Source of the DNA: Paenibacillus sp. FSL H8-0548
GTDB taxonomy: Bacteria; Bacillota; Bacilli; Paenibacillales; Paenibacillaceae
DNA: 64,000 nt
Assembly: GCF_038630985.1 (NCBI RefSeq)
Contig: NZ_CP152049.1
Span: 2,747,501-2,811,500, forward strand
Direction of reading: 5' to 3'
The notes under the pieces were generated by a model. That model saw only the letters and a list, made by a program, of their open reading frames with translations. It was not told the DNA's origin and ran no database searches. This document shows, piece by piece, positions 37,241-56,203 of this stretch (positions are counted from its first letter, which is position 1; every line of letters begins with the position of its first letter). The position numbers and the translations under genes are program-made.

Positions 37241-37300
37241 GACAACATAAAAGCAATATAAACAACATGAAAGCTACGTAAAACAGTTGAAACTAAGTGA
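37241..37300 (+). promoter_or_regulatory. Tandem ACAACAT motifs before the MATE gene (candidate DeoR operator)
   Basis: ACAACATAAAAGC (37242) and ACAACATGAAAGC (37262) are near-identical with a 20-base period, and a weaker third unit AACAGTTGAAAC follows at 37282. A 20-base step puts all units on one face of the helix, as in repressor arrays. The same ACAACAT core recurs before the PHP/phn operon and the transporter operon. Confidence 0.45.
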
Positions 37301-37347: not shown

Positions 37348-38739
37348 TTGGGGAATAGTACGCTCGTAAAGTCTGATTTCACTCGCGAGATGAAAGGATT
37401 AGTCGTTCCATCCGTGCTGCAAATGCTTGTTGGCAATTCGTTCTCGTTAGTTAATATGCTTATGGTGACCAGCTTGGGAGATGGGGCAGTCGCTGTAACT
37501 GCCGCAGCGGGTAGAATCAGCTTCATTCTATCAATGATCCTTACCGCAATCTATGGGATGACCACTTATATGACCCAATACTATGGCAAACAACAGTATT
37601 CGCTTATGCGGGCAACATTCGGCTTTATGCTGCTGGCGGGAATCGGTACAAGTCTTCTAGCGTTTGTTGCTGTGTGGTCTTGGAAGGAGCCGATTCTCTA
37701 TCTATTTATTAAGGATGCTGAATTACTGCCGCTTGGTGTGCAGTACGTTGCGATTATGGCTTTTGTTTTTCTAATTAGTGCGATTAGAGATGCTTATGCG
37801 CAGGCGCTTGGATCTATAGGGAAGGTTAAGATCACGTTGTATGTCGGCCTATGTGCAATGGCAGTCAATATTATATTGGACTATGGCCTGATATATGGAA
37901 GGCTGGGCTTGCCTAAGCTTGGTGTTGCAGGAGCCGCGTGGGGAACATTAATCGCTTCGGGTATAAGTTTGTTGTTTTTGTTTGTTTTCATTTATAGTAA
38001 ATCGTATTATTTAAATATTGGATTTCGAGAGCTTTTCAGTTTCCCGCTGAAGCTGCGCAAGCAGGTGGTGAGAACGATAACGCCGCTCGTATTCCACGAA
38101 GGCATGTGGGCGATTGGCAATATGCTGTATGCCGTAGCTTTCGGATCATTAGGTATCGCGGCATTGACTACATTCCAGCTTGCAAATACGCTGCAGGGAT
38201 ATTTTATGATGGGAATTCACGGATTTGCTTATGCTGCTAAGGTAATGATCGGTCAAAAGCTGGGACAGGACAAGCATGAGCAGGCGCTGGATTATTCTCA
38301 GAGATTTACTCGCATTTCGGTTATTGCTGGTATAATCATTAGTATTGTCATAATTATGATTTCTCCGTTTATGTCCTTTGTTTTTCCTCAATTAAGTGGT
38401 GAGGTGCACGCTTCTTTAGGAAATGTCTTGCTGCTGCAGGCTTTGGCGATGACCGCATTTTTCTTGAATAATGTGTGGATTGTCGGTATGTTTAGAGCAG
38501 GCGGAGATAATTTGTTTACGATGAACATGATTTTAATTACAACATGGGCGATTACATTGCCGGCGGTATTTATTGGCGCATACGTGCTTCATCTGCCGCT
38601 GGAATGGGTTTACGCCATATTTTTATGTGAAGAGATTAGCAAGGCTTTGATCGGGTATAAACGTTATCGCTCTCAGAAATGGATGCGGAATTTGGTTGGG
38701 AATATGGCTGACTCGCCATCAACGGCTGCATCTTTATAG
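37348..38739 (+). CDS. MATE-family efflux protein
   Basis: A protein of 463 residues with twelve predicted membrane helices in two homologous halves (TREMKGLVVPSVLQMLVGNSFSLVNMLMVTSLGD...; TPLVFHEGMWAIGNMLYAVAFGSLG). MATE proteins export cationic or amphiphilic compounds using Na+ or H+ gradients. TTG start after GAGGGA. It stands first in the phosphonate region, directly before the DeoR regulator gene, and shares its candidate operator motif with the phn genes. It may export a toxic intermediate or a phosphonate-related natural product; the substrate is unknown. Confidence 0.85.
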   Translation: MGNSTLVKSDFTREMKGLVVPSVLQMLVGNSFSLVNMLMVTSLGDGAVAVTAAAGRISFILSMILTAIYGMTTYMTQYYGKQQYSLMRATFGFMLLAGIGTSLLAFVAVWSWKEPILYLFIKDAELLPLGVQYVAIMAFVFLISAIRDAYAQALGSIGKVKITLYVGLCAMAVNIILDYGLIYGRLGLPKLGVAGAAWGTLIASGISLLFLFVFIYSKSYYLNIGFRELFSFPLKLRKQVVRTITPLVFHEGMWAIGNMLYAVAFGSLGIAALTTFQLANTLQGYFMMGIHGFAYAAKVMIGQKLGQDKHEQALDYSQRFTRISVIAGIIISIVIIMISPFMSFVFPQLSGEVHASLGNVLLLQALAMTAFFLNNVWIVGMFRAGGDNLFTMNMILITTWAITLPAVFIGAYVLHLPLEWVYAIFLCEEISKALIGYKRYRSQKWMRNLVGNMADSPSTAASL

Positions 38740-38787: not shown

Positions 38788-39573
38788 ATGTCACTCGCGG
38801 GCGAAGAAAGAAAGCTGAATATTATGAACTTGCTGAACGAGCATGGGAAGGTTATTGCGAGCGACCTGGCGCGTATGTTCGAGGTTACAACCGAGACGAT
38901 TCGTAGAGATTTGGATGATCTAGAGAAGGAAAATAAGCTTAAGAAAGTGTATGGCGGCGCAATCAAGCTGAAGGTTGAGGTAGAGCCCACATTGTTTGAA
39001 AGAGCCTGTGTTAATCAAGAGGCGAAGGAGAAAATTGGGTATCTTGCTTTTACGCTAATCGAAGATTATGACGTGATTTTTATAGATGAAGGTACAACAC
39101 CGCTTCAAATTATCCCGTTTCTCTCTCAGAAACAGCAGGTTACCGTTTTGACGAGCTCGATCTCCGCATTAATGGCTTTGATTGAGCTCAAGAAACGAGA
39201 GCAATTCGATGGTCGAATGATTATGCTTGGCGGTGAAGTGAATGTGAAGCATCTTCGTGTAACAGGAGCGATTGCGGAAGCGAATATGTCGGATATTTTT
39301 GTGAATAAAGCATTTGTAACCGTTGACGCCTTATCGATTGAGCATGGATTCACGAGCTATGATTATGAGAAGGCGTCGCTTACCCGCAAATGGATTCAGC
39401 AGTCGGAAACCTCTATTATTTTGGCGGATTCATCGAAATGGAACAAGCGGTCTATGGTGAAAATATGTGACTTTCAAAATATCGATATCGTTATTTCGGA
39501 ATTAGAGCCTCCGGCTGCCTGGAAAACTCAGCTGGAAGAGTCGAATACGAGATGGATGATGCCAACAGAATAG
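38788..39573 (+). CDS. DeoR-family transcriptional regulator
   Basis: A protein of 261 residues. The N-terminal helix-turn-helix reads ERKLNIMNLLNEHGKVIASDLARMFEVTTETIRRDLDDLEKE, the standard DeoR signature. The C-terminal sugar-isomerase-like sensor domain includes FIDEGTTPLQIIPFL and ILADSSKWNKRSMVKI. Such proteins are usually repressors released by a phosphorylated metabolite. AGGAGGG precedes ATG. Recurring ACAACAT motifs around its own promoter region and the phn genes make it the likely regulator of the whole phosphonate locus; a phosphonate- or phosphate-bearing intermediate could be its signal. Confidence 0.9.
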   Translation: MSLAGEERKLNIMNLLNEHGKVIASDLARMFEVTTETIRRDLDDLEKENKLKKVYGGAIKLKVEVEPTLFERACVNQEAKEKIGYLAFTLIEDYDVIFIDEGTTPLQIIPFLSQKQQVTVLTSSISALMALIELKKREQFDGRMIMLGGEVNVKHLRVTGAIAEANMSDIFVNKAFVTVDALSIEHGFTSYDYEKASLTRKWIQQSETSIILADSSKWNKRSMVKICDFQNIDIVISELEPPAAWKTQLEESNTRWMMPTE

Positions 39574-39643: not shown

Positions 39644-39698
39644 TTCTTGAGAAATATAGAGATCGTATGGCCAAATGATAACCTTTCCTATATTTTGA

Positions 39699-39738
39699 AA
39701 AAGCCAGTAGAGAAGCTAAACTTCTCTGCTGGCTTTTT
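39699..39738 (+). terminator. Terminator of the MATE/DeoR unit
   Basis: AAAGCCAGTAGAGAAG pairs with CTTCTCTGCTGGCTTTT (one G-T pair) over a 5-base loop and continues as a run of T. Confidence 0.88.
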
Positions 39739-39742
39739 TTCT

Positions 39743-39880
39743 ATGTTGTTTGTTGTTGTGTAAAGATTGTAATCGCTATGTTAAATCTTTCGAATCGCAT
39801 TGTAATGGTCGTTTTTTCGCAGTAGAATAATGAAAACAACATAAATAAAAGTAAAAGCAGTAGAAAACAAAATGTTGTTT
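39743..39880 (+). promoter_or_regulatory. Regulatory region of the PHP/phnWX operon with ACAACA motifs
   Basis: ATGTTGTTTGTTGTTG (39743-39758) contains the motif in reverse. TGAAAACAACAT lies at 39831-39842, and the inverted pair AACAA...TTGTT (39865-39880, AAAACAAAATGTTGTTT) follows. The same core occurs before the MATE gene and the transporter operon. The region 39574-39947 has no protein gene; besides this and the two hairpins I see nothing else in it. Confidence 0.45.
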
Positions 39881-39947
39881 GTGGTCGTTTTTATATCCTT
39901 CAGCACATCTTCATTGAAACAGATGACTAAAAATAGGAGTGATGACG

Positions 39948-40928
39948 ATGAAAGACAAAGTGTATTTGGACAGAAGCAAACGGAAGTACAAAGGAAATTT
40001 GCATTTGCATACGACTTGGTCGGATGGATCACAAGAGGCAGCGGATGTTGTTTCTGCGTTCAAGGCTAAGGGCTACGATTTCATCAGCATCACGGATCAT
40101 GATGTATTCGCTCGTACCGCTGCATTTGACACGGAATCATTCACTGTACTGCCGGGCATGGAGAGAGGCGGCTTGAATCTAGTGCCGGATGAAGATCCAG
40201 GCTACCACTTTGGCGTGCTGGACGATCCAACGATCAAGTCGGAGAAAGAAAGATTCGATCATTTGCAAACATTCGAGGTTCCGATTCCTTGGGAGGGACA
40301 ACAATCTCCGCAGAAGCTGATTGATGAAATGAAGGCGCATGGAAATCTCGTGATATTCAATCACCCCGAATGGCATTTGACACGCTTTGAGGACATGGTT
40401 CAGTATGATGGTTTTTTTGCGATTGAAATTTATAATCACGCAACGGAATGGACGACGAGTTCTTCTTATGGAGCGGCTTACTGGGATCATGCGCTGCAGA
40501 ATGGGAAGCGTGTGTATGGTATTGCTGCTGATGATTCGCACGACCATGATCCAAACTGCAAAATTTCCGAGTATGGGGGAGGCTGGGTTTCTGTCGAAGC
40601 GGAGGAGCTTTCGCAGCAAGGCATTATTTCTGCACTAAAGAATGGACAATTTTATTCCAGCTCTGGACCTGAAATTTTTGATTTCCGTGTAGTGGATGGC
40701 TTTGTTCATGTCGAGTGCTCACCCTGCCAATACATCATGTTTAAAGCATTTCCGCTGCGTGGACCGTTCCACGTAGAACGGGAAAAGGGGGAGCTACTGA
40801 CCTCAGGAAGCATGGTAATCCAGAAAGGCATGAATTATATTCGGGTGGAGTGCGTGGATGAGAAAGGTAGAATAGCATGGTCTAATCCGATCTTTGTAGC
40901 AGATTTGGCAGAGGAGGATGAGCAATGA
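39948..40928 (+). CDS. PHP-domain metal-dependent phosphoesterase (first tandem copy)
   Basis: About 326 residues. The PHP metal motifs are NLHLHTTWSDG, ISITDHD, NHPEWHLTRFED and AADDSHDHD. The family hydrolyses phosphate mono- or diesters with two or three metal ions. AGGAG at 39935-39939 supports ATG 39948; GTG 39939 and ATG 39942 lie too close. There is no signal peptide. It is the first gene of the phosphonate operon, with a paralogue directly behind. With PhnW/PhnX downstream, cleavage of a phosphonate ester is a reasonable guess, not shown by the sequence. Confidence 0.82.
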   Translation: MKDKVYLDRSKRKYKGNLHLHTTWSDGSQEAADVVSAFKAKGYDFISITDHDVFARTAAFDTESFTVLPGMERGGLNLVPDEDPGYHFGVLDDPTIKSEKERFDHLQTFEVPIPWEGQQSPQKLIDEMKAHGNLVIFNHPEWHLTRFEDMVQYDGFFAIEIYNHATEWTTSSSYGAAYWDHALQNGKRVYGIAADDSHDHDPNCKISEYGGGWVSVEAEELSQQGIISALKNGQFYSSSGPEIFDFRVVDGFVHVECSPCQYIMFKAFPLRGPFHVEREKGELLTSGSMVIQKGMNYIRVECVDEKGRIAWSNPIFVADLAEEDEQ

Positions 40929-41899
40929 GAGATACTATAATTTTAGATGCCGGGCGTCAAAAGTATAAAGGTAATATTCATTCGCATTCCGTTCGCAGTG
41001 ATGGCGAATATACGGTAGAGCAAATGATAGAAGCCTATCGCTCAAAGGGCTATGATTTTATGTGCTTAAGTGATCATGAAGTCTATTTCCAAAGCGATGC
41101 GTATGACACGGAAGAGTTTATTATGTTGGACGGCTATGAAATGGCTTGCGAGATGGAACGTGAAACAACCGGCCAACAATACCATATGCATGGCCTTTTG
41201 GATCGGTCGCTGCAGGCAGAGAAGCCCTTTCTACACGATGAGGAGCATGCGAAGCCTAACTATGTGAGCCTGGATACGATCCAGCAGTTGATTGATGAGA
41301 TGAGAAGCAAAGGGAATCTCGTCATTATGAATCATCCAGAATGGTCTAAAAATCGAGAAGAAGATTTGCTAAAGCTTGAGGGCTATGCGGCGATCGAAAT
41401 CTATAATCACCAATCCGAAATTCAAGAGGCGGTAGGTTACGGCGTATCCTACTGGGACTATGTCCTAAAGCGGGGCAAGCAAGTAAATGCAATTGCGGCA
41501 GACGATACTCACGGCGGTCCTACTGATATGGCAGTGTCCGAATTTTATGGCGGCTGGATTACTGTAGAGAGCGAGCGATTAGAGCAGCAGGCGATTATTG
41601 ATGCTATGAAAGCAGGCCAGTATTACAGCTCCAATGGTCCGATGATTTATGGTCTTCGCATTGAAAACGACAGGCTTAAGGTCAAATGCTCTCCTGTGCA
41701 AAGTATTCGCTTTATTACCTTTCCAGACAATGGCTTGGCAGAAATGGACCCAACGGGTGAACTCATCACGGATGCTGAATATTTCATTCAAAATGATGAG
41801 CAATATGTGCGAGTGGAATGCATAGATGGATCAGGAAAAGTAGCGTGGAGCAATCCGATCTACCCCAAATTCGAAATGCAAGCATCGGAGGAGCTATGA
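40925..41899 (+). CDS. PHP-domain metal-dependent phosphoesterase (second tandem copy)
   Basis: A protein of 324 residues, clearly paralogous to its neighbour: GNIHSHSVRSDGEYTVEQMIEAYRSKGYDFMCLSDHE, GNLVIMNHPEW, EIYNHQSE, IAADDTHGG and the shared C-terminus IRVECVDEKGR/VRVECIDGSGK-like followed by VAWSNPI. All PHP metal ligands appear kept in both copies, so both could be active, perhaps on different esters. ATGA overlap with the first copy and with phnW shows translational coupling. Confidence 0.82.
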   Translation: MRDTIILDAGRQKYKGNIHSHSVRSDGEYTVEQMIEAYRSKGYDFMCLSDHEVYFQSDAYDTEEFIMLDGYEMACEMERETTGQQYHMHGLLDRSLQAEKPFLHDEEHAKPNYVSLDTIQQLIDEMRSKGNLVIMNHPEWSKNREEDLLKLEGYAAIEIYNHQSEIQEAVGYGVSYWDYVLKRGKQVNAIAADDTHGGPTDMAVSEFYGGWITVESERLEQQAIIDAMKAGQYYSSNGPMIYGLRIENDRLKVKCSPVQSIRFITFPDNGLAEMDPTGELITDAEYFIQNDEQYVRVECIDGSGKVAWSNPIYPKFEMQASEEL

Positions 41900-43005
41900 G
41901 CAATCCGTATTTATTATTGACGCCAGGTCCCTTATCGACAACTGCAACGGTCAAAGAGGCGATGCAAAAAGATTGGTGTACATGGGATCATGAATATAAA
42001 GCAATTGTTGAGCAAATTCGTCAGCAGCTGCTAGAGGTTGGCTGTACATCTAAGGAGCACTATACGACTGTGTTTATGCAGGGCAGCGGCACCTTCGGTG
42101 TTGAAGCGACGCTGGGATCTGTCATTCCGAGTGAGGGCAAGCTGCTCATTCTGCAAAACGGCGCCTATGGGAAGCGTATCGAGGAAATAGCAAAGGTGCT
42201 CGGTATCCCGCATTTATCCCTTGAATTTGCAGCTAATTTGCCTGTAGATCCACAAGCTGTTGAGAGGAAGCTGATAGAGGACACATCCATTACGCATGTG
42301 GCGATGGTCCATTGTGAGACGACGACAGGCATACTGAATCCGCTTGAGGCGGTTGTGGATGTCATTAAGCGAAATCATCGGATTGCAATCATCGATGCGA
42401 TGAGCAGCTTTGGTGGCATTCCGATCGCAGTAGAGGAGCTGCAAATCGACTTTATAATTAGCAGTGCAAATAAATGCATCCAAGGTGTTCCAGGCTTCAG
42501 CTTTATTCTTTGCAAAAGGGATGAGCTCATGAAATGCAAAGGGAGAGCACGCTCATTATCGCTGGATTTGTATGACCAGTGGGAGACGATGGAGAAGGAC
42601 TCCGGCAAATGGCGGTTCACTTCGCCAACGCATGTCGTACATGCTTTTAAGCAAGCACTAAAGGAATTAGCAGAAGAGGGTGGGGTGGAAGCCCGTCATG
42701 CACGATATCGAATCAACCAGCAAATCGTCGTGGAAGGGATGACGCAAGCTGGCTTTAAGGCTTATTTGGAAAGTGAGCTGCAGTCTCCCCTTATTACAAC
42801 CTTTTTGTATCCAACGCATATTCCTTTTACGTTTGAACACTTTTATAGCTATTTAAAGTTGGCTGGTTATGTCATTTATCCTGGGAAATTAACAGATTTG
42901 AATGTGTTTCGCATTGGGAATATGGGAGATGTGCATGCAAAGGATATGGAACGGTTGATTGAGCACATATTACGTTTTGTGGGAGAGAGTAAAGATGAGA
43001 ATTGA
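41896..43005 (+). CDS. phnW: 2-aminoethylphosphonate--pyruvate transaminase
   Basis: About 369 residues of the class V aminotransferase fold. It transfers the amino group of 2-aminoethylphosphonate to pyruvate, giving phosphonoacetaldehyde and alanine. The N-terminus NPYLLLTPGPLSTTATVKEAMQKDWCTWD is typical of PhnW. The PLP lysine is in SSANKCIQGVPGFSF (Lys about 193), and DAMSSFGG carries the cofactor Asp. GGAGGAG before ATG 41896 and a 4-base overlap with the PHP gene fix the start, although the frame is open 78 bases further up. phnX overlaps its end. Confidence 0.94.
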   Translation: MSNPYLLLTPGPLSTTATVKEAMQKDWCTWDHEYKAIVEQIRQQLLEVGCTSKEHYTTVFMQGSGTFGVEATLGSVIPSEGKLLILQNGAYGKRIEEIAKVLGIPHLSLEFAANLPVDPQAVERKLIEDTSITHVAMVHCETTTGILNPLEAVVDVIKRNHRIAIIDAMSSFGGIPIAVEELQIDFIISSANKCIQGVPGFSFILCKRDELMKCKGRARSLSLDLYDQWETMEKDSGKWRFTSPTHVVHAFKQALKELAEEGGVEARHARYRINQQIVVEGMTQAGFKAYLESELQSPLITTFLYPTHIPFTFEHFYSYLKLAGYVIYPGKLTDLNVFRIGNMGDVHAKDMERLIEHILRFVGESKDEN

Positions 43006-43816
43006 AGGCGTTATATTGGATTGGGCAGGTACTACGGTTGATTATGGCTGCTTTGCGCCGGTGCAGGTGTTTATTCATATTTTTGAGGAAATAGGCATTC
43101 CATTAACGATGGAAGAGGTTCGAGCTCCTATGGGTCAGTTGAAGCGGGACCATATTCAGTCGCTGCTGCAAATGCCAAGAATAGAAGCTGCTTTTCAAAA
43201 GAAATTCGGCCGCAGCTATACGGAGACTGATATTGATGAGCTTCATGAGCGTTTTGAGCCTAGGCTGATGGCTATTCTCTCGGAATTCGGCAAGCCCAAT
43301 CCATATGTTTTAGAGACCATCGAGCTGTTGAGACAGCAAGGCCTAAAAATCGGAGCGACTACAGGCTATACCACCACAATGCTTTCCATCGTGGCGAAAG
43401 CAGCTAAGGAATACGGATATGAACCAGATCATTGGGTAACACCTGATCTAGTTATGGACAAAGGCAGGCCTTATCCTTATATGATTTATGAGAATATGAA
43501 GCAGCTTGGCCTGCGCCATCATGCCCAAGTGGTTAAGGTCGGAGATACGATTTCTGACATGCAAGAGGCGAATAGTGCTGGAGTATGGGCGATTGGTATC
43601 GTGAAAGGCAGCTCCATGCTTGGTCTTACGGAGGCAGAGGTGCAGCAGTTGTCGCCTGAAGAAGAACGCCAGATCATCGCTGACGTAAGTAAGCGATATA
43701 TGGAAGCAGGAGCGCATGCCGTTATTGAAGATATGGCTGGGCTGCCTGCGGTAATTGAGCAAATCAATGAACGATTGATGAATAAGGAGCTGCCTTATGG
43801 ACATCCGCATCAATAG
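42995..43816 (+). CDS. phnX: Phosphonoacetaldehyde hydrolase (phosphonatase)
   Basis: A 273-residue HAD-superfamily enzyme that splits phosphonoacetaldehyde into acetaldehyde and phosphate. The nucleophile Asp9 is in ILDWAGTTVDYGCFAP and the Schiff-base lysine, about Lys50, in PMGQLKRDH. TTGYT and VKVGDTISDMQEANSAG are the later HAD motifs. It begins inside the end of phnW and ends inside the start of the lyase gene, so all three are translationally coupled. It completes the carbon-phosphorus bond cleavage route. Confidence 0.95.
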   Translation: MRIEGVILDWAGTTVDYGCFAPVQVFIHIFEEIGIPLTMEEVRAPMGQLKRDHIQSLLQMPRIEAAFQKKFGRSYTETDIDELHERFEPRLMAILSEFGKPNPYVLETIELLRQQGLKIGATTGYTTTMLSIVAKAAKEYGYEPDHWVTPDLVMDKGRPYPYMIYENMKQLGLRHHAQVVKVGDTISDMQEANSAGVWAIGIVKGSSMLGLTEAEVQQLSPEEERQIIADVSKRYMEAGAHAVIEDMAGLPAVIEQINERLMNKELPYGHPHQ

Positions 43817-45155
43817 CCGAATAGAAGGAGATATAAACGGAACGGATGCTCGTCAAGCTTGGCAAGACGAGTATCTAAGCGAAGAGACGCTTGCTGTACT
43901 GGAACAGGACAGCAAGCTTTTTCTTCATCAGTCGATGTCTACGCCATGCTTAAATGCGATCGTAAGTGCAGAGGGCATATATATTGAGGATCTGGATGGA
44001 CGCAGAGTGATCGATTTCCATGGAAACAGCGTTCATCAGGTAGGCCACAAAAATGAATATGTGATGAATGCCATTATTAATCAGCTGCAGCAGCTGCCGT
44101 TTCTGCCGCGTCGCTATACGAGCCAGATTGCGATTAAGCTAGCGCAGAAGCTAATCGAGCTTGCACCGGGAGATTTGAACAAGGTGTTGTTTGCGCCAGG
44201 TGGCACGACTGCTATTGGAATAGCGCTAAAGCTTGCGCGCAGGGCAACGGGCAAGCACAAAACAATTTCAACTTGGGATTCCTTTCATGGCGCAAGCTTG
44301 GATGCGATATCAATTGGCGGTGAAGCTGTATTCAGAAGCGGGATTGGACCGCTAATGTCAGGAACAGAGCATATGATGCCTTATAACAACTATCGTTCGA
44401 TCTTTGGCGAAGGAGAAGCTGCCAACGCCAAAAATCTGGACTATTTATGCTATATGCTGGAGAGGGAGGATGATGTGTGCGCAGTCATTCTCGAGCCGAT
44501 TCGCAGCACGGATGTACAGATCCCGAGCGTTGCCTATATGCAGCGTCTTCGTCAAATTTGCGATGATTATGGGGTGCTGCTCATACTGGACGAAATACCG
44601 ACAGCACTCGGCCGTACGGGCAAAATGTTCGTTCACGAGCATTATGATATTGTTCCCGATATCGTCGTCATTGGCAAAGGATTAGGCGGCGGGATTTTCC
44701 CAATGGCAGGTATTATAGCCAGAGAGCATCTAGATATTGCGGGAGACATTTCCCTCGGGCATTATACACATGAGAAAAGCGCTGTAGGCTGTGCGGCTGC
44801 ACTGGCTACCATTGAATACATCGAAAAGGAAAACCTGCTTGAGCATGCGCAAAATATGGAGCTATGGCTGATGGCTCATCTTCAGGAGCTGCAGAGGAAG
44901 TATGCCGTAATAGGCGATGTTCGGGTTAAAGGAATGCTGGCGGCAATCGAACTCGTATCAGATCGCGAGACGAAGGAGAAGGAAGTTGCAGGCGCTGAAA
45001 AAGTACTCTATGAATGCTTGTCACGAGGACTTAGCTTTAAGGTATCAAGCGGAAATGTCATTACGCTTGTTCCGCCACTAATTACAAGCGTGAAACAGAT
45101 GGAAGAAGCGATCGCCATTTTGGATCAAGCGCTTGAACAAGTATTTATAAAATGA
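43797..45155 (+). CDS. pbfA: Class III aminotransferase-like lyase, probable (R)-1-hydroxy-2-aminoethylphosphonate ammonia-lyase
   Basis: A 452-residue PLP enzyme: PGGTTAIGIALKLARRATGK, WDSFHGASLDA, VILEPIRST, LLILDEIPTALGRTG and the cofactor lysine in VIGKGLGGGIFPMAG (about Lys294). Class III members beside phnW and phnX are known as PbfA, which removes ammonia from the hydroxylated phosphonate to give phosphonoacetaldehyde. The call rests on this context plus family; another transaminase activity cannot be excluded. AAGGAG inside phnX precedes ATG. It is the last gene before the transporter operon. Confidence 0.78.
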   Translation: MDIRINSRIEGDINGTDARQAWQDEYLSEETLAVLEQDSKLFLHQSMSTPCLNAIVSAEGIYIEDLDGRRVIDFHGNSVHQVGHKNEYVMNAIINQLQQLPFLPRRYTSQIAIKLAQKLIELAPGDLNKVLFAPGGTTAIGIALKLARRATGKHKTISTWDSFHGASLDAISIGGEAVFRSGIGPLMSGTEHMMPYNNYRSIFGEGEAANAKNLDYLCYMLEREDDVCAVILEPIRSTDVQIPSVAYMQRLRQICDDYGVLLILDEIPTALGRTGKMFVHEHYDIVPDIVVIGKGLGGGIFPMAGIIAREHLDIAGDISLGHYTHEKSAVGCAAALATIEYIEKENLLEHAQNMELWLMAHLQELQRKYAVIGDVRVKGMLAAIELVSDRETKEKEVAGAEKVLYECLSRGLSFKVSSGNVITLVPPLITSVKQMEEAIAILDQALEQVFIK

Positions 45156-45174
45156 AATCAGATTTAATATTATG

Positions 45175-45260
45175 AAAACAACAACATTACAATTAAAAAA
45201 ATAACAAAACAATTTATTAATATGTAATTGACACAGTTTTTACAATTCTCCTTTATAGTT
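45175..45260 (+). promoter_or_regulatory. Promoter and ACAACAT motif of the phosphonate-locus importer
   Basis: AAAACAACAACAT at 45175-45187 matches the motif before the MATE and PHP genes. About 40 bases on, TTGACA (45229-45234) is a consensus -35, with a TATA-rich -10 candidate near 45253-45260 at a slightly long spacing. This suggests separate but co-regulated transcription of the importer. Confidence 0.45.
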
Positions 45261-45304
45261 TAGTTAAGCCAGTGAGAACTGGAAAACGAGGAGGGTTTAC
45301 TAGA

Positions 45305-46684
45305 ATGAAGAAGCTTGCACTTGGATTAGTTAGTGTAATGACAAGTATGACATTATTAGCAGGTTGTAGTACAGGCTCAAATACTGGAGCTGCCGCAAAT
45401 GGCGGCGCAGACACTTCTAGCAATGGCGAGAAAATGAAAGAGGTAGTGATCTCCGTTCGTGAGAACACCTGGGGAGCACGGAAAGACAATTTTATAGAAG
45501 CAGAAAAGCGTGTGAACGAACAGCTTAAGTCGGAGAATGTACAGATAAAAATCGACTGGTGGCCTGGCATTGGCGATGATGAGCTGATCTTGCAGGCGCA
45601 AGCGAATAAAGTAGCGGATGTATTCATTAACTCCAGTGTAGATATTGGGTGGCAGCTGAATGCCGGACTAATCCGCGATGTAGACTGGGTTGGAACATCA
45701 GAGGTGTTCAAAAACATGCCGGAATCCTACAACAACATGATGAAGTACGAAGATCATTACTATGGCGTTATTCAGGATATGGATGCTTCTCCCGTATTCA
45801 TTAGCCGTAAGGCGCTGGAAGGTCTCGGCTGGACTGCTGCGCAAATCGATGAGCTGAAGGCTCGCGTGGATGCAGGCACCTTTACCTTCAGCGAGCTTGT
45901 GGATCTGGCAGATTCGGCGGTTAAGCAAAAGCTGGTTAAGGTAGGCTTCGGCGTTGAGGATACGAGGTTTGAAGGCTGGAATTATACATTCGACAACTTT
46001 AATTACAGTGCGGAAGCGAACAAGATGGTGCTGTCTAAAAACACGCAGAAGGTGTATGAGTTTTGGCAGGATGCGAAGCAGCGCGGCGTAGTTACGGAGG
46101 GCATTGCTGAGATTGATACGGACAAGGCTGCCGAGCTGTTCATTAAAGGCGATTTGTTCGCTGAATTTGCCCGTACTGAATTTTATCAAGTGATGCGTAC
46201 ACAACTTGGCATGGATGAGGACTTAGCAGGCTATGAAGCTTGGTTTAAGGAAAATGCGATTTGGATCCCGGTTCCATCGGTTGAACAGGGAGGAAAACCT
46301 GTATCCTACAGCAATCCTGCATTGATCTACGTAGGAGCTAGAGTAGATGAAGAGAAGATGCCATATGTTCAAAAACTGATTGAGCATGTACTGGATGCGG
46401 ACCTACAGATTAATCATACGCTGAAAAGCGGCAAGCTTCCTGTAACGGCGGCGGCACAGGAAGATCCTCGCTTCCAAGAAATGAGCTTTTACAAGGATCA
46501 CGCTTATTTAATCGAGTTTACGAAAACTCGTCCCGCTCAAATGGATTATGCGGTCTACATGAAATCTTTTACGCTTGGTATTGATGCAATTCTGACTAAA
46601 GGTCAAACAGCAGCTCAAGCATTTGAGCTATTCCAAAAGGATGTAAAACAAAACGTACCAGCGAACAGTCTCATTGTAGAATAA
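45305..46684 (+). CDS. Substrate-binding lipoprotein of the phosphonate-locus importer
   Basis: About 459 residues: signal peptide with lipobox LAGC (Cys about 20), Gly/Ala/Ser-rich linker, then a family 1 binding-protein fold (KEVVISVRENTWGARKDNFIEAEKRVNEQL; WWPGIGDDELILQAQANKVADVFINSSVDIGW). GAGGAGGG at about 45290 selects ATG 45305 over the upstream in-frame start. The family usually binds sugars, so a glycosylated or glycerol-linked phosphonate is an attractive ligand; this is inference from the operon. A stem-loop follows the stop. Confidence 0.85.
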   Translation: MKKLALGLVSVMTSMTLLAGCSTGSNTGAAANGGADTSSNGEKMKEVVISVRENTWGARKDNFIEAEKRVNEQLKSENVQIKIDWWPGIGDDELILQAQANKVADVFINSSVDIGWQLNAGLIRDVDWVGTSEVFKNMPESYNNMMKYEDHYYGVIQDMDASPVFISRKALEGLGWTAAQIDELKARVDAGTFTFSELVDLADSAVKQKLVKVGFGVEDTRFEGWNYTFDNFNYSAEANKMVLSKNTQKVYEFWQDAKQRGVVTEGIAEIDTDKAAELFIKGDLFAEFARTEFYQVMRTQLGMDEDLAGYEAWFKENAIWIPVPSVEQGGKPVSYSNPALIYVGARVDEEKMPYVQKLIEHVLDADLQINHTLKSGKLPVTAAAQEDPRFQEMSFYKDHAYLIEFTKTRPAQMDYAVYMKSFTLGIDAILTKGQTAAQAFELFQKDVKQNVPANSLIVE

Positions 46685-46695
46685 CGATGATACAG

Positions 46696-46725
46696 AAAAG
46701 GTGCTCTGCTTGCAAGAGCACCTTT
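46696..46725 (+). promoter_or_regulatory. Stem-loop between binding-protein and permease genes
   Basis: AAAGGTGCTCT and AGAGCACCTTT form a perfect 11-bp stem with a 6-7-base loop and only a short T-run, as at the other two binding-protein/permease junctions. Confidence 0.65.
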
Positions 46726-46765
46726 CCGCATATTTTGTTTAAAGGAAGCAGGTGCAGATCTCATT

Positions 46766-47704
46766 ATGGAGATCCCAGTGTCTTTAGCCAAGAAGGCTTA
46801 CAAGAAGCCTTTAGCCAAGAAAATGTATCCTTATTTTTTCATAATGCCATTTGCTCTTCTCGTACTTGTCTTTTTTATTCTGCCAGCGATTGCGACCATT
46901 ATCATGTCCTTTACAGATTTGAACGCATCAATGAAAATTAATTTTGTTGGTTTCGATAATTTCAAGCGAATATTTACCGATTACAGTATGCCTCAAATTT
47001 TATGGAACACGGTCCTATTTGCAGTGGTTACCCTTGTGTTCTCTTTGTTTTTTGGTTTATTTATATCCATTGCAACCCAGTATTTCTTAAAGGGAAAATT
47101 AACGGCAGTCATTTATCGTGTCCTGTGGTTAATTCCAAGCATCATTCCTGCTGTTGTATATGTTACGTTCTGGAAGTATTTATTTGATCCTACGGGTGAT
47201 GGGCTAATCAATAAGGTTCTGCTTTTATTCCAGCCAGATGGCGATCCTATCTCGTGGTTTACAAAAATCGCGATGGCAATCGTGATCATCGCAACGATTG
47301 TATCTACTACCTCGGGTGGCATGATTTTATTATCGGCAGCAATCAGCTCCATCCCAGAAGATTTGTATAAGGCTGCCAAAGTTGATGGAGCAAGCGAGAA
47401 ATCGGTCATCACCAAGATCATTCTGCCTTCATTAAAATGGCCGTTAATGTATATTACGATATCGGATCTCATCGGCTTTGTATCCTCCTATTTCTTCATC
47501 TTGCTGCTGACAAATGGCGGACCTATGCGGGACACGACGACGTTATCTCTTTACGCGTACCAGCAGGCCTTCAATTTGAAATATTATGGATACGGCGCCG
47601 CTCTTTCTCTTCTGGTTGTGCTGATCTCGCTTATTTTGACGTTATGGCTGCTGAGGCTGTTTGATTTCAATGAAATGATAAAGCCATCGCGAATCGAGGA
47701 TTAG
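46766..47704 (+). CDS. CUT1 ABC transporter permease, MalF-type
   Basis: A protein of 312 residues with six predicted helices starting at about residue 25 (FFIMPFALLVLVFFILPAIATIIMSF). The EAA loop is LYKAAKVDGASEKSVITKIILPSLKWP. The start at ATG 46766 has only a modest AGGTG site; no better in-frame alternative was found before the first helix. It is followed 9 bases later by the second permease. Confidence 0.9.
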   Translation: MEIPVSLAKKAYKKPLAKKMYPYFFIMPFALLVLVFFILPAIATIIMSFTDLNASMKINFVGFDNFKRIFTDYSMPQILWNTVLFAVVTLVFSLFFGLFISIATQYFLKGKLTAVIYRVLWLIPSIIPAVVYVTFWKYLFDPTGDGLINKVLLLFQPDGDPISWFTKIAMAIVIIATIVSTTSGGMILLSAAISSIPEDLYKAAKVDGASEKSVITKIILPSLKWPLMYITISDLIGFVSSYFFILLLTNGGPMRDTTTLSLYAYQQAFNLKYYGYGAALSLLVVLISLILTLWLLRLFDFNEMIKPSRIED

Positions 47705-47713
47705 GAGGCAATT

Positions 47714-48544
47714 ATGTCGACAAGCATTGCAAAAAAACTGCTCGTGCACACGTATATGCTGCTCTTCACCATGCCTATCATTGGTATGATTATATGGTAT
47801 TTTCTCGCAGCAACCTTCAATGGCACGACGGGGCAATTTACGCTCCAGAACTTCAATTTTGTTAAAGAGCCGATCGAGTATGCGGGTGTAGTTCTGCCGG
47901 CGATTTGGCCGATTGTTCTAAATACTTTGGTCTATTCGGTTCTTATCGTGGTGATTGAAATTGGCATTGCTGTACCAGCTGCCTATGCATTTTCTAGGCT
48001 TGATTTCAAAGGCAAGCTGGCCGCCATGAAGTTCCTATTTCTTATGCGCTCCTTTCCAGGCATTACGCTCATTATCGCAACGTTCTTTATCCTCGTTCAA
48101 ATGAATTTGGTAAATACGTATTTAGGCGTTATTCTCGTTGCGATAACCGGATCATTGCCAGGCAGGGTGTATATTATGAAAGGTTTCTTCGATGAGGTGC
48201 CGTGGGATTTGGAATGGGCGGCTATGGTGGATGGATGCTCGAGATTTCGAGCGCTCATGAAAGTACTCGTTCCGTATGTATTGCCGGGCATTGGAGCTAT
48301 ATCCGTGTTCTCCTTCTTAGGCGCATATGGCGAATGGTTTTTATTCAAGCTGTTTATATTCGATGACAATATGCTGACGCTGGCTGGCTATCTGTCTCGT
48401 CTTGTTACGAAGGAAAATGTCATTTTGAACTATGGGCTAATTACGGCGATTGGTTTGTTTTATACGATTCCGCTAGTCGTGTTCTATATCTTTACTCAAA
48501 AAATATTCCTGAAAATCAATATGGGAGGAGCAAAGCAGGTATGA
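47714..48544 (+). CDS. CUT1 ABC transporter permease, MalG-type
   Basis: A protein of 276 residues with six helices, EAA loop LEWAAMVDGCSRFRALMKVLVPYVLPG and a C-terminus KINMGGAKQV in place of the usual GSVKG. AGGAGG stands 7 bases before ATG. It overlaps the ATPase gene by 4 bases, which ties this importer to its own ATPase. Confidence 0.9.
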   Translation: MSTSIAKKLLVHTYMLLFTMPIIGMIIWYFLAATFNGTTGQFTLQNFNFVKEPIEYAGVVLPAIWPIVLNTLVYSVLIVVIEIGIAVPAAYAFSRLDFKGKLAAMKFLFLMRSFPGITLIIATFFILVQMNLVNTYLGVILVAITGSLPGRVYIMKGFFDEVPWDLEWAAMVDGCSRFRALMKVLVPYVLPGIGAISVFSFLGAYGEWFLFKLFIFDDNMLTLAGYLSRLVTKENVILNYGLITAIGLFYTIPLVVFYIFTQKIFLKINMGGAKQV

Positions 48545-49656
48545 TTTCTCTTGTAAATATCGTGAAGGACTATGATGGCAAACAAAGCGGAAGCCGTGCG
48601 GTAGACGGATTGAATCTCGAAATTGCAAAGGGTGAATTTGTTGCGCTGCTAGGCCCTTCAGGCTGTGGAAAAACGACTACGCTAATGATGCTGGCTGGGC
48701 TTCTGAAGCCAACTTCTGGAGAAATATATTTCAAGGATAAGCTTGTCAACCATGTGGAGCCTAAGGATCGTAATATCGGTATGGTGTTTCAGTCCTATGC
48801 GCTTTATCCTCATTTGACAGTTCGTGACAACATTGCGTTCCCGCTTCGCGAGAGAAAAATGGCTAAGAAGGATGCGTACGAGCGTGCTTTGCAAACGAGC
48901 AAAATATTACAAATTGATCATCTGCTCGATCGCAAGCCGTCGCAGCTGTCAGGCGGCCAGCAGCAGCGTGTTGCCATGGCGCGCGCGTTGTCCAAGGACC
49001 CAGAAATCTTGCTGCTCGATGAGCCGATGTCCAATTTGGATGCACGATTGAAATTGGATGTACGGGATGAGATTCGGAAAATCCAACGTAAATTAGGAGT
49101 CACGACCATTATAGTTACGCATGACCAGGAGGAAGCTTTGGCTATCTCTGATCGTGTAGCTATCCTTAACGGAGGGAAAATTCAGCAATACGCGCCTCCG
49201 AATGAGCTGTTTAATCATCCTTATAATCTGTTTGTAGGCAGCTTTCTAGGCAATCCGCCTATGAACCTGATTGACGGAATCGTAGAGAAGAGAGATGAAC
49301 AACAGTGGATAAAGACGAAGCTGTTCGACTTGGAAATTCCCGAGGCGCGCAGGCTGGAGAAGCAGCATATCGGGAAAGCGGTTAAGCTTGGCATACGTCC
49401 TCATGATTTGTTCATTTCAGATCAACCGAGTGAGGCTGCTATTAGGTTGAAAATTGATCTGATCGAGCATCTAGGCAATGGGCAATTAGTAAAATTGACA
49501 GACCTTGCTGGGCAGTCCGATATTATGGTTCGGATGCTGGCTGATAACGAGAAGCTTCTAAGGGAGCGCGAGACGATCTCGATTGGCATAAGGCCGACTA
49601 AATTTCATCTGTTCGATATGACAGACGAAGGTCGCAATTTATTGCAGTTTCAATAG
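48541..49656 (+). CDS. CUT1 ABC transporter ATPase (UgpC/MsmX-like)
   Basis: A protein of 371 residues. Walker A GPSGCGKTT, Q-loop VFQSYALYPHLTV, signature LSGGQQQRVAMARAL, Walker B LLLDEPMSNLDARL and H-loop VTHDQEEAL are intact, with a TOBE/OB C-terminal domain from about 240. UgpC-like ATPases serve glycerol-3-phosphate or sugar importers. It belongs to the permeases upstream by overlap, and could also serve the ATPase-less importers at 0.8 kb and 15 kb, which is a common sharing arrangement in Bacilli. Confidence 0.92.
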   Translation: MISLVNIVKDYDGKQSGSRAVDGLNLEIAKGEFVALLGPSGCGKTTTLMMLAGLLKPTSGEIYFKDKLVNHVEPKDRNIGMVFQSYALYPHLTVRDNIAFPLRERKMAKKDAYERALQTSKILQIDHLLDRKPSQLSGGQQQRVAMARALSKDPEILLLDEPMSNLDARLKLDVRDEIRKIQRKLGVTTIIVTHDQEEALAISDRVAILNGGKIQQYAPPNELFNHPYNLFVGSFLGNPPMNLIDGIVEKRDEQQWIKTKLFDLEIPEARRLEKQHIGKAVKLGIRPHDLFISDQPSEAAIRLKIDLIEHLGNGQLVKLTDLAGQSDIMVRMLADNEKLLRERETISIGIRPTKFHLFDMTDEGRNLLQFQ

Positions 49657-49674
49657 AATGAGAAGGAGTAAAGA

Positions 49675-50478
49675 ATGACAATACCTAATCTCTTAATCGA
49701 TCAGCATGTGCATTCTTCTTATTCGCCTGACTCCAATTCAACCTTAGAGGAGCTTGTGCGATTTGCGCTTGCGCAGGGGAAGCCTGCTGTCGTTACGACA
49801 GACCATTTAGAATATGATTGCAAATATTTCAAGCAGGATGTTCATATTGATTGGAAGAACTACAATAGAGAAGCGGAAGAGTTGTCGCAGCGTTATGCGA
49901 TAGAGATTCGAAAGGGCATTGAGGTCGGCTTTCGAAGCGATTATAAAGTTGTCATAAACGAATATTTGGCAGAGCACGAGTTTGACGTTATTTTGCTGTC
50001 TGCGCATAATGACGGGAGGCTGGATTTTTCCGAAAAGGCTTTTCATGATAAGCCGATTCAGCAGCGGCTTAGGCATTATTTTACACAGGTAAGAGAGGCT
50101 GTCGACAAGATGGATAATTACGATATCGTTGCACATTTGGATTATGTTGTGAGATATACGACATTTCCGGTGTATGAAGAAGATATCGCGGCTTGCAAGC
50201 CTATTTTGTACGATATTTTAAAGCTGATCATTGAGAAACAAAAGGTATTGGAGCTGAATACAACCGGATTATATCGACAAGGCTGGATTCATCCTCATTC
50301 GTATATTCTCAACATGTATGTGAATTTAGGCGGCAGAGCGGTATCCATTGGCTCGGATGCGCATCAGGTGGGACATATAGAGCAAGGCTTTTCAGAAGCG
50401 ATAGAGCTGCTGCAGAGTAAAGGCATTCGAGAGGTTGTGCAATTTAAGAGAAGAGCACCATATTTGGTGTCTATATAG
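49675..50478 (+). CDS. PHP-domain phosphoesterase, histidinol-phosphatase-like
   Basis: A protein of 267 residues with AGAAGGAG before ATG. Metal motifs DQHVHSSYSPDS, VTTDHLEYD, LLSAHNDGR, DIVAHLDYV and SIGSDAHQVGHIEQG match the HisK/HisJ-type PHP phosphatases, which remove phosphate from small monoesters. It lies in the phosphonate-locus importer operon and far from any his gene, so histidine synthesis is an unlikely role. It is the third PHP protein of the locus and not closely similar to the tandem pair. A terminator follows. Confidence 0.8.
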   Translation: MTIPNLLIDQHVHSSYSPDSNSTLEELVRFALAQGKPAVVTTDHLEYDCKYFKQDVHIDWKNYNREAEELSQRYAIEIRKGIEVGFRSDYKVVINEYLAEHEFDVILLSAHNDGRLDFSEKAFHDKPIQQRLRHYFTQVREAVDKMDNYDIVAHLDYVVRYTTFPVYEEDIAACKPILYDILKLIIEKQKVLELNTTGLYRQGWIHPHSYILNMYVNLGGRAVSIGSDAHQVGHIEQGFSEAIELLQSKGIREVVQFKRRAPYLVSI

Positions 50479-50482: not shown

Positions 50483-50519
50483 AAAAACCACTGTGATAGT
50501 TAATGGCAGTGGTTTTTTT
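50483..50519 (+). terminator. Terminator of the phosphonate-locus importer operon
   Basis: AAAAACCACTG and CAGTGGTTTTT form an 11-bp stem over a loop of about 13 bases, followed by more T. Confidence 0.85.
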
Positions 50520-50880: not shown

Positions 50881-52399
50881 AACTCAACTTTCGCAGAGTC
50901 AAAACCGAGTTGACTCCAATCCGGTGTTAAGGTAAAGCTGGTTTAAGTAACGATCTTGCCAACATAGAAAAACACCGCTTCATTTGGTAAAGTGAGATTG
51001 TCGAGATCCACTAAACCAAAGAAGAGGTGTCCCTTCCATGATAAAGCAAAAGTCGTCCCTAGATCAACTCCCACCTGAAATGAGGCCTGCTTTTCAGGAA
51101 CTCGGTGTACTGAAGCACCTGAGAAATGCAGGATTCAAAAAGACTTTTGGCTATACCTGTTCCCATCTATTTATGCTCGTTTTTGTCCTTCTCTTTCATC
51201 AGAAGAACTGGTTTCGTCTGCTCGAAAGTTCCAAAAGTGAAGCCTTTCCTGGCAAAGATGCCGTCTACCGGTTTCTTAATCACAGCGGATTTGCTTGGCG
51301 GCGTTTCTTGACTTCTCTCAGCAGTGACACCGTTCAGCGAGTCGAAACCTTGACCTCCGTCACACGAACTTCCGTGTTTATTGTCGACGATTCCATGTTT
51401 GAACGAAATCGCAGCAAAGCGGTAGAACTTCTCGCTCGGTTCAAGGATCACGCCACCGGTGCTTATTATAAGGGGTTCCGTATGCTGACTTTAGGCTGGT
51501 CGGACGGCCATACATTTCTCCCTCTGGACTTCGCCCTGCTCAGTTCTGTGAAGGCTGGACTGACCGGTATTCATCCGGGAATCGATAAGCGATCCACTGG
51601 GTACAAACGCCGGAAAGAAGCTCTGCTTTCGGCCCCGCATCTGGTTTCTGAACTGCTGGATCGGGCCATCGCCTCGGGTGTTTCTGCGTCTTACGTACTC
51701 ATGGACAGTTGGTTCACTCATGCGCCCTTAATCGAGCGAGTGGTGGAACGAGGTCTTCATGTCATTGGCATGGTGAAAAACGACAACAAGCGATATCTCG
51801 TTCAGGGCAAGCGGGTCGATCTCAAAGGTCTTTACCGATCTGCAACGCAAGTCCAAGGGAAGCAACGGAATATTTTGCGTCAGATTCATACGGAACTGGT
51901 TCCCGGTATTCCAGTCGTCGTGGTCTTTGTTCGCCATCGCTCCAAGAAAAACGAGTGGCTCGCGATTCTATCGACGGATCTCACACTGACGGCACCGGAA
52001 ATCATTCAAATCTACGCTCTTCGCTGGGACATCGAGGTTTTTTTCAAATGCGCTAAATCCTTGCTGCGCCTGCAAAAAGAGTTCCAAGGTCGCTCCTACG
52101 ATCTGCTCATTAGCCATACTACGATTGTCTTTTCCCGTTATATTCTGCTGGCTTGGCAGCATCGGCAAAGTACCGATCAACGGACGCTCGGTGGACTGTT
52201 TTATTTGCTATGCGATGAAGTCGGTTCTTTGGACTGGGCAGTGGCTTTACAGCAACTGGTGGAATTGATGAACGAAATCGCTAATCAAGTCGGCAAAAAG
52301 CTATCCGCTATGATAAAAAGTCAACTACAGCTCTGGATCTCCGCTTTGCCCAATTACATCAAGGCTTACTTGCCAATTTCAGGCTGCGAAAGTTGAGTT
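50881..52399 (+). mobile_element. IS4-family insertion sequence
   Basis: The element is bounded by perfect 16-base inverted repeats, AACTCAACTTTCGCAG (50881-50896) and its complement (52384-52399), and carries one transposase gene. GAGTTATTAAT occurs in direct orientation at 50864-50874 and 52395-52405, in the same codon phase of the interrupted gene. The right copy overlaps the inverted repeat by 5 bases, so whether it is the target duplication, or only ATT is, remains open. Length of about 1.5 kb fits the family. Confidence 0.88.
51038..52396 (+). CDS. IS4-family DDE transposase
   Basis: A protein of 452 residues with an intact frame. Catalytic Asp residues are in FIVDDSMFERNRSK and YVLMDSWFTHAP. 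The YREK signature Y-2-R-3-E-6-K is exact in YALRWDIEVFFKCAK. AAGAGGTG precedes ATG, and the stop codon lies inside the right inverted repeat. It appears full-length and potentially active. Confidence 0.93.
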   Translation: MIKQKSSLDQLPPEMRPAFQELGVLKHLRNAGFKKTFGYTCSHLFMLVFVLLFHQKNWFRLLESSKSEAFPGKDAVYRFLNHSGFAWRRFLTSLSSDTVQRVETLTSVTRTSVFIVDDSMFERNRSKAVELLARFKDHATGAYYKGFRMLTLGWSDGHTFLPLDFALLSSVKAGLTGIHPGIDKRSTGYKRRKEALLSAPHLVSELLDRAIASGVSASYVLMDSWFTHAPLIERVVERGLHVIGMVKNDNKRYLVQGKRVDLKGLYRSATQVQGKQRNILRQIHTELVPGIPVVVVFVRHRSKKNEWLAILSTDLTLTAPEIIQIYALRWDIEVFFKCAKSLLRLQKEFQGRSYDLLISHTTIVFSRYILLAWQHRQSTDQRTLGGLFYLLCDEVGSLDWAVALQQLVELMNEIANQVGKKLSAMIKSQLQLWISALPNYIKAYLPISGCES

Positions 52400-55637: not shown

Positions 55638-55646
55638 CTTTCGTAG

Positions 55647-56183: not shown

Positions 56184-56203
56184 TAGTGTGGAGGGAGCAT
56201 CAT

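Follow-up and report, generated by a model that had tools for sequence, protein, structure and literature searches.

The window analyzed here, a stretch of 64,000 nucleotides of Paenibacillus sp. FSL H8-0548 DNA, contains on its + strand, at positions 39948-50478, a single operon that encodes two PHP metallohydrolases (PHP1 and PHP2), PhnW, PhnX, PbfA, a CUT1 importer with a lipoprotein substrate-binding protein (SBP), and a further PHP enzyme, PHP3 (Table 1). The operon is limited by terminators at 39697-39739 and at about 50483-50517; the loop of the latter exceeds the limit of the terminator scan, and it is thus absent from the scan list. The genes were called by comparing NCBIfam scores with curated cut-offs and by Pfam domains, and each gene named in an earlier sequence-only reading was found on the + strand where that reading had placed it. 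The coupling of the tandem PHP pair to phnW that it described is also borne out, as the 4-base overlaps at PHP1/PHP2 and PHP2/phnW are both ATGA; phnW, phnX and pbfA overlap successively too. PhnW and PhnX exceed curated equivalog cut-offs, which places the operon in the PhnW-PhnX 2-aminoethylphosphonate (AEP) pathway, and PbfA, likewise above its curated cut-off, adds the PbfA extension of that pathway, as had been claimed.

Table 1. Features of the operon and of its upstream region (window coordinates)
Feature	Position	Strand	Basis
Operator-like motif upstream of MATE gene	37259..37268	-	motif search, 1 mismatch
MATE-family efflux pump (matE)	37348..38739	+	TIGR00797 161.2 vs cut-off 147.4
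DeoR-family regulator	38788..39573	+	Pfam DeoRC and HTH_DeoR
Intrinsic terminator after deoR	39697..39739	+	terminator scan; stem conserved in 7 aligned loci
Operator-like motif ATGTTGTTTG	39743..39752	+	motif search; position conserved in alignment
Promoter-like TTGTAA-17-TAGAAT	39800..39828	+	consensus match only; similar in alignment
Operator-like motif directly after -10-like box	39833..39842	-	motif search, alignment
Operator-like motif ATGTTGTTTG	39872..39881	+	motif search
PHP1, CehA/McbA-family PHP metallohydrolase, 326 aa	39948..40928	+	NF038032 110.2 vs cut-off 80
PHP2, CehA/McbA-family, tandem paralogue of PHP1 (43% identical), 324 aa	40925..41899	+	NF038032 98.8 vs cut-off 80
PhnW, 2-aminoethylphosphonate--pyruvate transaminase	41896..43005	+	TIGR02326 562.7 vs cut-off 400.8
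PhnX, phosphonoacetaldehyde hydrolase	42995..43816	+	TIGR01422 349.1 vs cut-off 220
PbfA	43797..45155	+	NF049939 708.6 vs cut-off 525
CUT1 substrate-binding lipoprotein (SBP)	45305..46684	+	Pfam SBP_bac_8
CUT1 permease 1	46766..47704	+	Pfam BPD_transp_1; UgpA-like, below cut-off
CUT1 permease 2	47714..48544	+	Pfam BPD_transp_1
MalK/UgpC-type ATPase	48541..49656	+	ABC_tran, OB_MalK, TOBE_2; UgpC model 382.2 vs cut-off 432
PHP3, HisJ-family phosphatase, accessory	49675..50478	+	TIGR01856 126.8 vs cut-off 90.2
Terminator hairpin with T-run after PHP3	about 50483..50517	+	read by eye from sequence

PHP1 and PHP2 both belong to the CehA/McbA family (NF038032). The AlphaFold2 model of PHP1 (mean pLDDT 95.1) shows a PHP barrel that carries the metal ligands H-x-H, D-H, E, H and D-x-H, an alignment of 72 sequences shows the likely ligand positions to be conserved, and the nearest solved relatives of the model are mostly phosphoesterases and nucleases, known or annotated. 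In a tree of PHP proteins PHP1 forms one clade; bootstrap support for PHP2 as a single group is only 27%. Relatives at about 25-40% identity keep company with sugar-type importers, and some of these distant relatives also adjoin phosphoesterase genes (GDPD, calcineurin-like or HisJ-PHP). PHP3 is of a different sort, a member of the HisJ histidinol phosphatase family related to the histidinol-phosphate phosphatase 4gc3. The earlier reading counted this third PHP enzyme as part of the system. The gene is indeed present, but among cassette loci it occurs only in close relatives of the window, a part of the clade, and it is accessory rather than core.

What kind of importer does the operon encode? 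A CUT1 importer is recognized by an SBP of family 1/8, by a pair of separate permeases and by an ATPase of the MalK type that carries OB and TOBE domains; the window has a lipoprotein SBP, two BPD_transp_1 permeases and such an ATPase. The best solved relatives of the SBP family profile are SmoF, MalE3 and UgpB. The importer falls outside UgpBAEC, the ATPase missing the UgpC cut-off and permease 1 scoring 97.9 against 335 on the UgpA model. It likewise falls outside the PhnS2T2U2-type AEP importers (TIGR03261, TIGR03265, TIGR03262): in an NCBIfam scan that took in the SBP, ATPase and permease 1, the SBP had no match, the ATPase scored 325.8 against 457.7 on TIGR03265, and permease 1 scored 33.4 against 593.25 on TIGR03262. 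The importer of genome G281 passes all three models. Of the earlier description, a sugar-type importer with a UgpC-like ATPase, the CUT1 type therefore survives; because the ATPase lies below the UgpC cut-off, "UgpC-like" is not diagnostic and means CUT1-type and no more. Two SBP clusters are called "inositol-phosphate transport system" by their sources, and an iol operon lies downstream of the window's cassette. Inositol was dropped as a candidate ligand, since no iol genes were recognised in the flanks beyond PHP3 that were examined, those of loci L037, L041 and L067.

The MATE pump and the DeoR regulator, encoded just upstream of the operon, belong to the system; the pump had been overlooked by the sequence-only reading. 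The MATE gene stands beside or within the cassette in 13 of 16 genomes carrying the PHP pair (it was not found in the fetched pieces of G069, G193 and G305), and DeoR genes accompany other pbfA loci as well. Control of the operon, and perhaps of the pump too, probably lies with the regulator, acting through operators of the type AAAACAACAT. Ten of the 16 cassette loci were scanned for this motif, with G305 and near-copies set aside; they hold 17 matches against 1.32 expected, and none of 300 shuffles scored as high. The window contributes four matches and G223 none, and because the motif was derived from the window itself, there is some circularity in what the window and its close relatives add to the count. 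In 10 of the 13 pbfA loci without the pair there are nine matches against 1.01 expected (0/300 shuffles as high), four of them in G036, with four loci having none; for three loci the stretch searched was that before phnW. The operator-like motif before the MATE gene is seen at three of eight loci checked. A TTAAC-N5-GTTAA element was also spotted by eye in several upstream regions. Control by PhoP, as in the Pho regulon, was considered and rejected: upstream of 11 operons the summed best PhoP-box scores, by a Bacillus consensus, came to 109 against 109.17 in shuffles, of which 125 of 200 scored as high.

How closely is the PHP pair tied to phosphonate genes? The survey sample held 296 genomes of the order, 21 of them with PbfA over its cut-off. 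Eight of those 21 carry the pair and none of the remaining 275 does (Fisher p 1.5e-10, with genomes treated as independent and kinship ignored; a weak 31% match in G067 was left out). Conversely, all 16 pair-carrying genomes found have PbfA over its cut-off, against 21/296 for the order. The order PHP1-PHP2-(MATE)-phnW-phnX-pbfA-CUT1 recurs in 12 of the 16, the window included and the SBP inferred in G305, so that the arrangement is not due to chance. The importer follows the pair. Among the 21 pbfA loci it is present at 8/8 with the pair, one copy being decayed, and no relatives of it were found in the pieces fetched for the 13 without; of those 13, six have a PhnS2T2U2-type importer, three a distant form of it, and four none in the fetched piece. 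At the orthologous site in G036 the pair and importer are both absent, in G051 they have decayed together, and in G069 they sit together at another site, away from pbfA and phnXW. Glycosidase-like genes lie alongside at the G069 site. The PHP pair, the CUT1 importer and PbfA are thus associated. Co-occurrence with PhnW was set aside as evidence, for PhnW is found in 16/16 pair genomes, yet also in 10 of 14 genomes with only the 25-40% PHP relatives.

Three cassettes have pbfA and lack phnWX, which ties the system to PbfA, and thus to R-1-hydroxy-2-aminoethylphosphonate (R-HAEP), more than to AEP. G001, G017 and G051 have elsewhere a phnS2T2U2-like-phnX-phnW-deoR operon, whose importer shares 59-65% identity with the G281 importer. 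The cassette thus adds something beyond uptake of free AEP, for which it is not required. On a wider scale, PHP1 as query against 398 genomes of the phylum yielded seven others, each 30-43% identical; the six regions fetched differ in context from the cassette, and none of the seven was counted. The cassette does appear to occur in Anaerocolumna (Lachnospiraceae), a group of anaerobes, where labelled relatives of PHP1, PHP2, SBP and PbfA apparently share one 22,370-base contig; the PHP1 relative scores 77.7 on NF038032, just under the cut-off of 80.

On balance we favor, with modest confidence and from sequence comparisons, a scheme in which the operon imports an aminophosphonate ester, the PHP enzymes de-esterify it, and PbfA or PhnW and then PhnX follow, probably under DeoR control. 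The importer would take up an organic ester linked to sugar, polyol or glycerol, most likely of R-HAEP and perhaps also of AEP, which PHP1 and PHP2 would hydrolyze in the cytoplasm to the free aminophosphonate. PbfA would then convert R-HAEP, and PhnW AEP, to phosphonoacetaldehyde, which PhnX would split to acetaldehyde and phosphate; any part played by the pump is presumptive. The reactions of PhnW, PhnX and PbfA are established, by family knowledge and by one published account (PMC8154272). The logic of import, internal cleavage and C-P bond breakage proposed earlier remains the best explanation, as the pair and importer share their presence, absence, decay and relocation and take the position that an AEP-type importer has at other pbfA loci. 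Its phosphonate pathway holds, with a closer tie to PbfA, and hence to R-HAEP, than to AEP.

Might the pair and importer instead serve an unrelated sugar or phosphodiester, such as glycerophospho- or glycosyl-phosphodiesters, and adjoin phosphonate genes only for a shared phosphorus supply? The G069 arrangement, apart from pbfA and phnXW and amid glycosidase-like genes, would fit, as would the GDPD and metallophosphoesterase genes that accompany paralogous modules. We nevertheless think this unlikely, though worth taking seriously: every pair-carrying genome, unlinked G069 included, has PbfA, PHP2 is joined to phnW by the ATGA overlap, and the pair with its importer occupies the place of the AEP-type importer at most other pbfA loci.

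A different chemistry has also to be weighed. CehA and McbA cleave a carbamate ester (carbaryl), and since both PHPs pass the cut-off of that family, they might strip a carbon-based group (carbamoyl, acyl or carboxylic ester) from an imported N- or O-acylated aminophosphonate. The model behind the family name, however, is a broad domain model; the solved folds that align best are phosphoesterases and nucleases, either known or annotated as such; and phosphodiesterase and phosphatase genes accompany some distant relatives. All of this makes the reading improbable. More improbable still is that the PHPs are diiron oxidases like PsfC, turning another phosphonate into R-HAEP or AEP. PsfC shares the fold, but the PHP family profile does not match it in sequence even at E values as high as 10; 3e38, TM0559 and 3o0f align better to PHP1; several nucleases tie with PsfC; and the cassette's apparent presence in anaerobes also speaks against an oxidase.

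If de-esterification is the right reading, where would the ester come from? According to one paper (PMC8154272), R-HAEP first came to light when an amoebal polysaccharide was hydrolyzed, and HAEP was first met in a bacterial lipid; R-HAEP also occurs in free form, as an intermediate of the PhnY*-PhnZ pathway, and abundance data are scanty. Invertebrate and protist glycans carry AEP, according to another (PMC6994554). The accounts consulted of the PhnW and PbfA routes start from free acids, and a marine polysaccharide study merely postulates alkaline-phosphatase-like enzymes for phosphonate ester hydrolysis (PMC5649143). In the titles and abstract openings searched, supplements and most subscription papers lying outside that search, pbfA clusters are nowhere described with PHP enzymes or with a CUT1 importer, and "PHP" has 0 occurrences in the main text of the PbfA-related papers examined. 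Tentatively, and with rather less confidence than we give the scheme itself, we suggest dedicated scavenging of phosphonoglycan or phosphonolipid fragments, for example from soil amoebae, the tandem pair feeding PbfA with R-HAEP from a natural bound form. These would be, as far as searched, the first CUT1 aminophosphonate-ester importer and the first PHP-family phosphonate-ester hydrolases. The cassette offers testable enzymes and an importer for the missing ester hydrolysis step in soil bacteria, and would give PbfA a plausible substrate supply.

Several known systems bear comparison. The phnWX-pbfA clusters with a PhnS2T2U2-type importer share the three C-P enzymes and usually a DeoR regulator, whereas the window has a CUT1 importer, two CehA/McbA-type PHPs and a MATE pump, and its gene order is phnW-phnX-pbfA rather than the pbfA-phnX-phnW of most pair-less clusters. 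The CehA/McbA metallohydrolases, whose family cut-off both window PHPs exceed, are linked to pesticide degradation; the context here is phosphonate catabolism. PsfC, from Pseudomonas fosfomycin biosynthesis, has the PHP fold and acts on a phosphonate, but is a biosynthetic iron enzyme beyond the reach of the PHP sequence profile. UgpBAEC, which imports glycerol-3-phosphate and glycerophosphodiesters, is of the CUT1 type and supplies one of the nearest solved SBPs, but the window's ATPase and permease 1 fall below the Ugp cut-offs and its operon has no glycerophosphodiesterase. In the SmoF system an anionic glycoside, sulfoquinovosyl-glycerol, is imported by a CUT1 importer and then unpacked inside the cell. 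Among solved structures SmoF comes closest to the profile of the window's SBP, but this relation is weak, and maltose binders and UgpB have it too; there a sulfonate meets a glycosidase, whereas here a phosphonate would meet a PHP enzyme.

The phosphonate, PHP and importer gene set that the sequence-only reading had picked out is indeed one operon on a single strand: PHP1 and PHP2 (tandem CehA/McbA-family metallohydrolases, "the pair"), phnW, phnX, pbfA, the substrate-binding lipoprotein (SBP), two permeases and ATPase of a CUT1 importer, and PHP3 of the HisJ family. The four-base overlaps it described are present as ATGA at PHP1/PHP2 and PHP2/phnW, and the coordinates give overlaps of 11 bases at phnW/phnX and 20 bases at phnX/pbfA. 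A second terminator, recognized by eye, closes the operon 3' of PHP3. PhnW, PhnX and PbfA all exceed curated equivalog cut-offs; PHP1 and PHP2 exceed the CehA/McbA domain cut-off and fall slightly below the Pfam PHP gathering score.

Features of the window around and including the cassette operon
Position	Feature	Remarks
20545-30055	Sensor kinase and response regulator (by eye), then PhnS2/T2/U2-like importer below AEP cut-offs; second SBP-like and phosphatase-like proteins (both by eye)	May serve organophosphate or iron uptake
30097-36654	Surface protein, 2185 aa, with SLH and GDPD (glycerophosphodiester phosphodiesterase) domains, just 5' of MATE gene	Not seen at the equivalent place in gene lists of L037, L041, L067
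39697-39739	Strong terminator	Between upstream MATE-deoR pair and operon
39948-50478	Operon, PHP1 to PHP3	SBP starts at 45305
51038-52396	IS4-family transposase	Directly 3' of operon
54567-63395	LacI-type regulator and myo-inositol catabolic operon, IolD first (TIGR04377 960.5 vs 715)	iol names other than IolD by eye

How widely is this cassette kept? A PHP2 search gave some match in 58 of 148 relatives and close tandem pairs (PHP2 59-100%) in nine, the window's own genome among them, with pair fragments in G051. Across 296 genomes of the order, a PHP1 search gave close copies in eight (G000, the window's own, G193, G223, G233, G272, G305, G341 and, broken, G051), a weak 31% match in G067 being left out of the counts. 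Both searches combined give 16 genomes with the pair, which stands with phnW, phnX, pbfA and a CUT1 importer in 12; for G193 and G305 some cassette genes were masked in reading-frame picking and their presence is taken from the genome searches, the G305 SBP being deduced from an SBP cluster with an equal-sized longest contig.

Of the 296 genomes, 21 carry a PbfA above the cut-off, and the pair occurs in 8/21 of these versus 0/275 others (Fisher p 1.5e-10, relatedness ignored); the other eight pair-carrying genomes, tested separately, all have PbfA, giving 16/16 overall. G023 and G044, with only ~40% PHP relatives, have no PbfA over the cut-off. Because the PbfA gene of G069 is distant from its cassette, the association does not reflect linkage alone. 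PhnW is likewise found in 16/16, but also in 10/14 comparison genomes, and since it is common in the genus its co-occurrence is uninformative.

Importer type was compared at 21 pbfA loci (2 fetched earlier and 19 others). The CUT1 importer adjoins the pair at all eight loci that have one, though decayed in G051. Among the 13 without the pair, six (G264, G253, G185, G281, G200, G089) have a PhnS2T2U2-type (AEP-type) importer, and a distantly related form occurs in three (G154, G302, G239); none was found in the fetched pieces of G036, G190, G207 and G167, the G190 piece running for 12 kb before its contig ends. All three subunits meet curated cut-offs in G281, the only locus tested for all three, the G154 SBP and permease tested fall below them, and the remaining PhnS2T2U2-type importers are assigned by identity to G281. 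The cassette SBP's family profile matches SmoF (1.1e-17), MalE3 (2.5e-17) and UgpB (7.3e-17) about equally; the SBP alone, at E up to 0.01, found no solved relative. This is in line with CUT1-type import of a small glycoside or glycerol ester that may be anionic, without fixing the exact ligand.

The pair and the importer go together as one module through absence, decay and relocation. The site that holds PHP1-PHP2-MATE-pbfA-importer in G017 is occupied in G036 by pbfA and deoR, with collinear flanks; the PHP1 search found no close copy in the whole G036 genome, nor were the MATE pump and importer found in the fetched piece. The G051 locus (L049) is decaying: its PHP genes are broken, one fragment seems to begin as PHP1 and finish as PHP2, permease 1 and ATPase are shortened, and no SBP was found there; MATE, pbfA and deoR look intact. 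In G069, pbfA and deoR remain at a site whose flank is common to G051 (in the 25 of 77 alignment rows listed), and the pair and importer lie elsewhere (L044), with genes for melibiase-like, GH109-like and acyltransferase-like proteins after them.

These L044 neighbours may hint at a sugar as the ester partner. At L041 the cassette is adjoined, upstream of its MATE gene, by genes for an SBP and a GH2 beta-mannosidase-like enzyme, and in the corresponding position L031 and L032 have sugar-type permease genes. At four loci (L046, L047, L048, L051), a related module joins a PHP relative of 26-40% to a sugar-type importer and holds calcineurin-like phosphoesterase, HisJ-PHP, GDPD or MATE genes, with no phosphonate genes in the fetched piece; these may be phosphodiester scavenging systems. 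At L099 and L100, PHP relatives of 30-33% identity have an RpiR-like regulator (by eye) before them and an MFS transporter (Pfam) directly after them.

Among named relatives in protein searches are Paenibacillus, Cohnella and Anaerocolumna for PHP1, and Saccharibacillus for SBP and PbfA. The Clostridia are represented by Anaerocolumna-labelled clusters related to PHP1, PHP2, SBP and PbfA, whose longest contig is 22,370 bases in every case; the PbfA exceeds its cut-off and the PHP1 relative falls just below that for CehA/McbA. At least 21 of 49 SBP clusters equal one of the first 68 PHP clusters in longest-contig size, at least 21 equal one of 120 listed PbfA clusters, and at least 30 equal either; we take equal sizes to mean the same contig, although a common long contig is not adjacency, and the counts are lower bounds, since each cluster lists just its longest contig and the cluster lists are capped.

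Upstream, AAAACAACAT-type motifs flank a promoter-like site on both sides, and occur upstream of the MATE gene in 3/8 loci. They are enriched at 10 cassette loci (17 vs 1.32) and 10 other pbfA loci (9 vs 1.01), with 0/300 shuffles as high in either set, counts for the window and close relatives being partly circular, as the motif derives from the window. A PhoP box was not supported. By eye, a palindrome-like TTAAC-N5-GTTAA lies upstream of PHP1 in L042, L043, L049, L068 (one mismatch) and L070, ~20 bases before a -35-like box.

What would the cassette bring to a cell that already handles AEP? G001, G017 and G051 have elsewhere a separate SBP-ATPase-permease-phnX-phnW-deoR operon, with an importer that shares 59-65% identity with the G281 one, and their PHP cassettes have pbfA without phnWX. 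The likely contribution of the cassette is therefore uptake of a compound other than free AEP, and PbfA is probably the C-P pathway enzyme proper to it. The window's own genome has a second phnX above the cut-off (L101, G000:C1 about 5,935,300) without adjoining phnW, near an oligopeptide-type importer and alcohol-dehydrogenase-like and phosphoesterase-like genes (neighbours by eye).

The best explanation is that the CUT1 importer takes up an aminophosphonate ester, its putative ligand, which the pair would de-esterify, by putative PHP chemistry, before PbfA or PhnW and then PhnX act. The ester import proposed in the sequence-only reading is kept and narrowed towards R-1-hydroxy-2-aminoethylphosphonate (R-HAEP), whose ester we prefer to an AEP ester mainly because of the pbfA-only cassettes beside separate phnX-phnW operons. 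AEP is attached to glycans of invertebrates and protists (PMC6994554), and enzymes for phosphonate release from polysaccharide esters are no more than postulated in PMC5649143. The AEP-transporter paper (PMC8316502) describes AepXVW, AepP and AepSTU.
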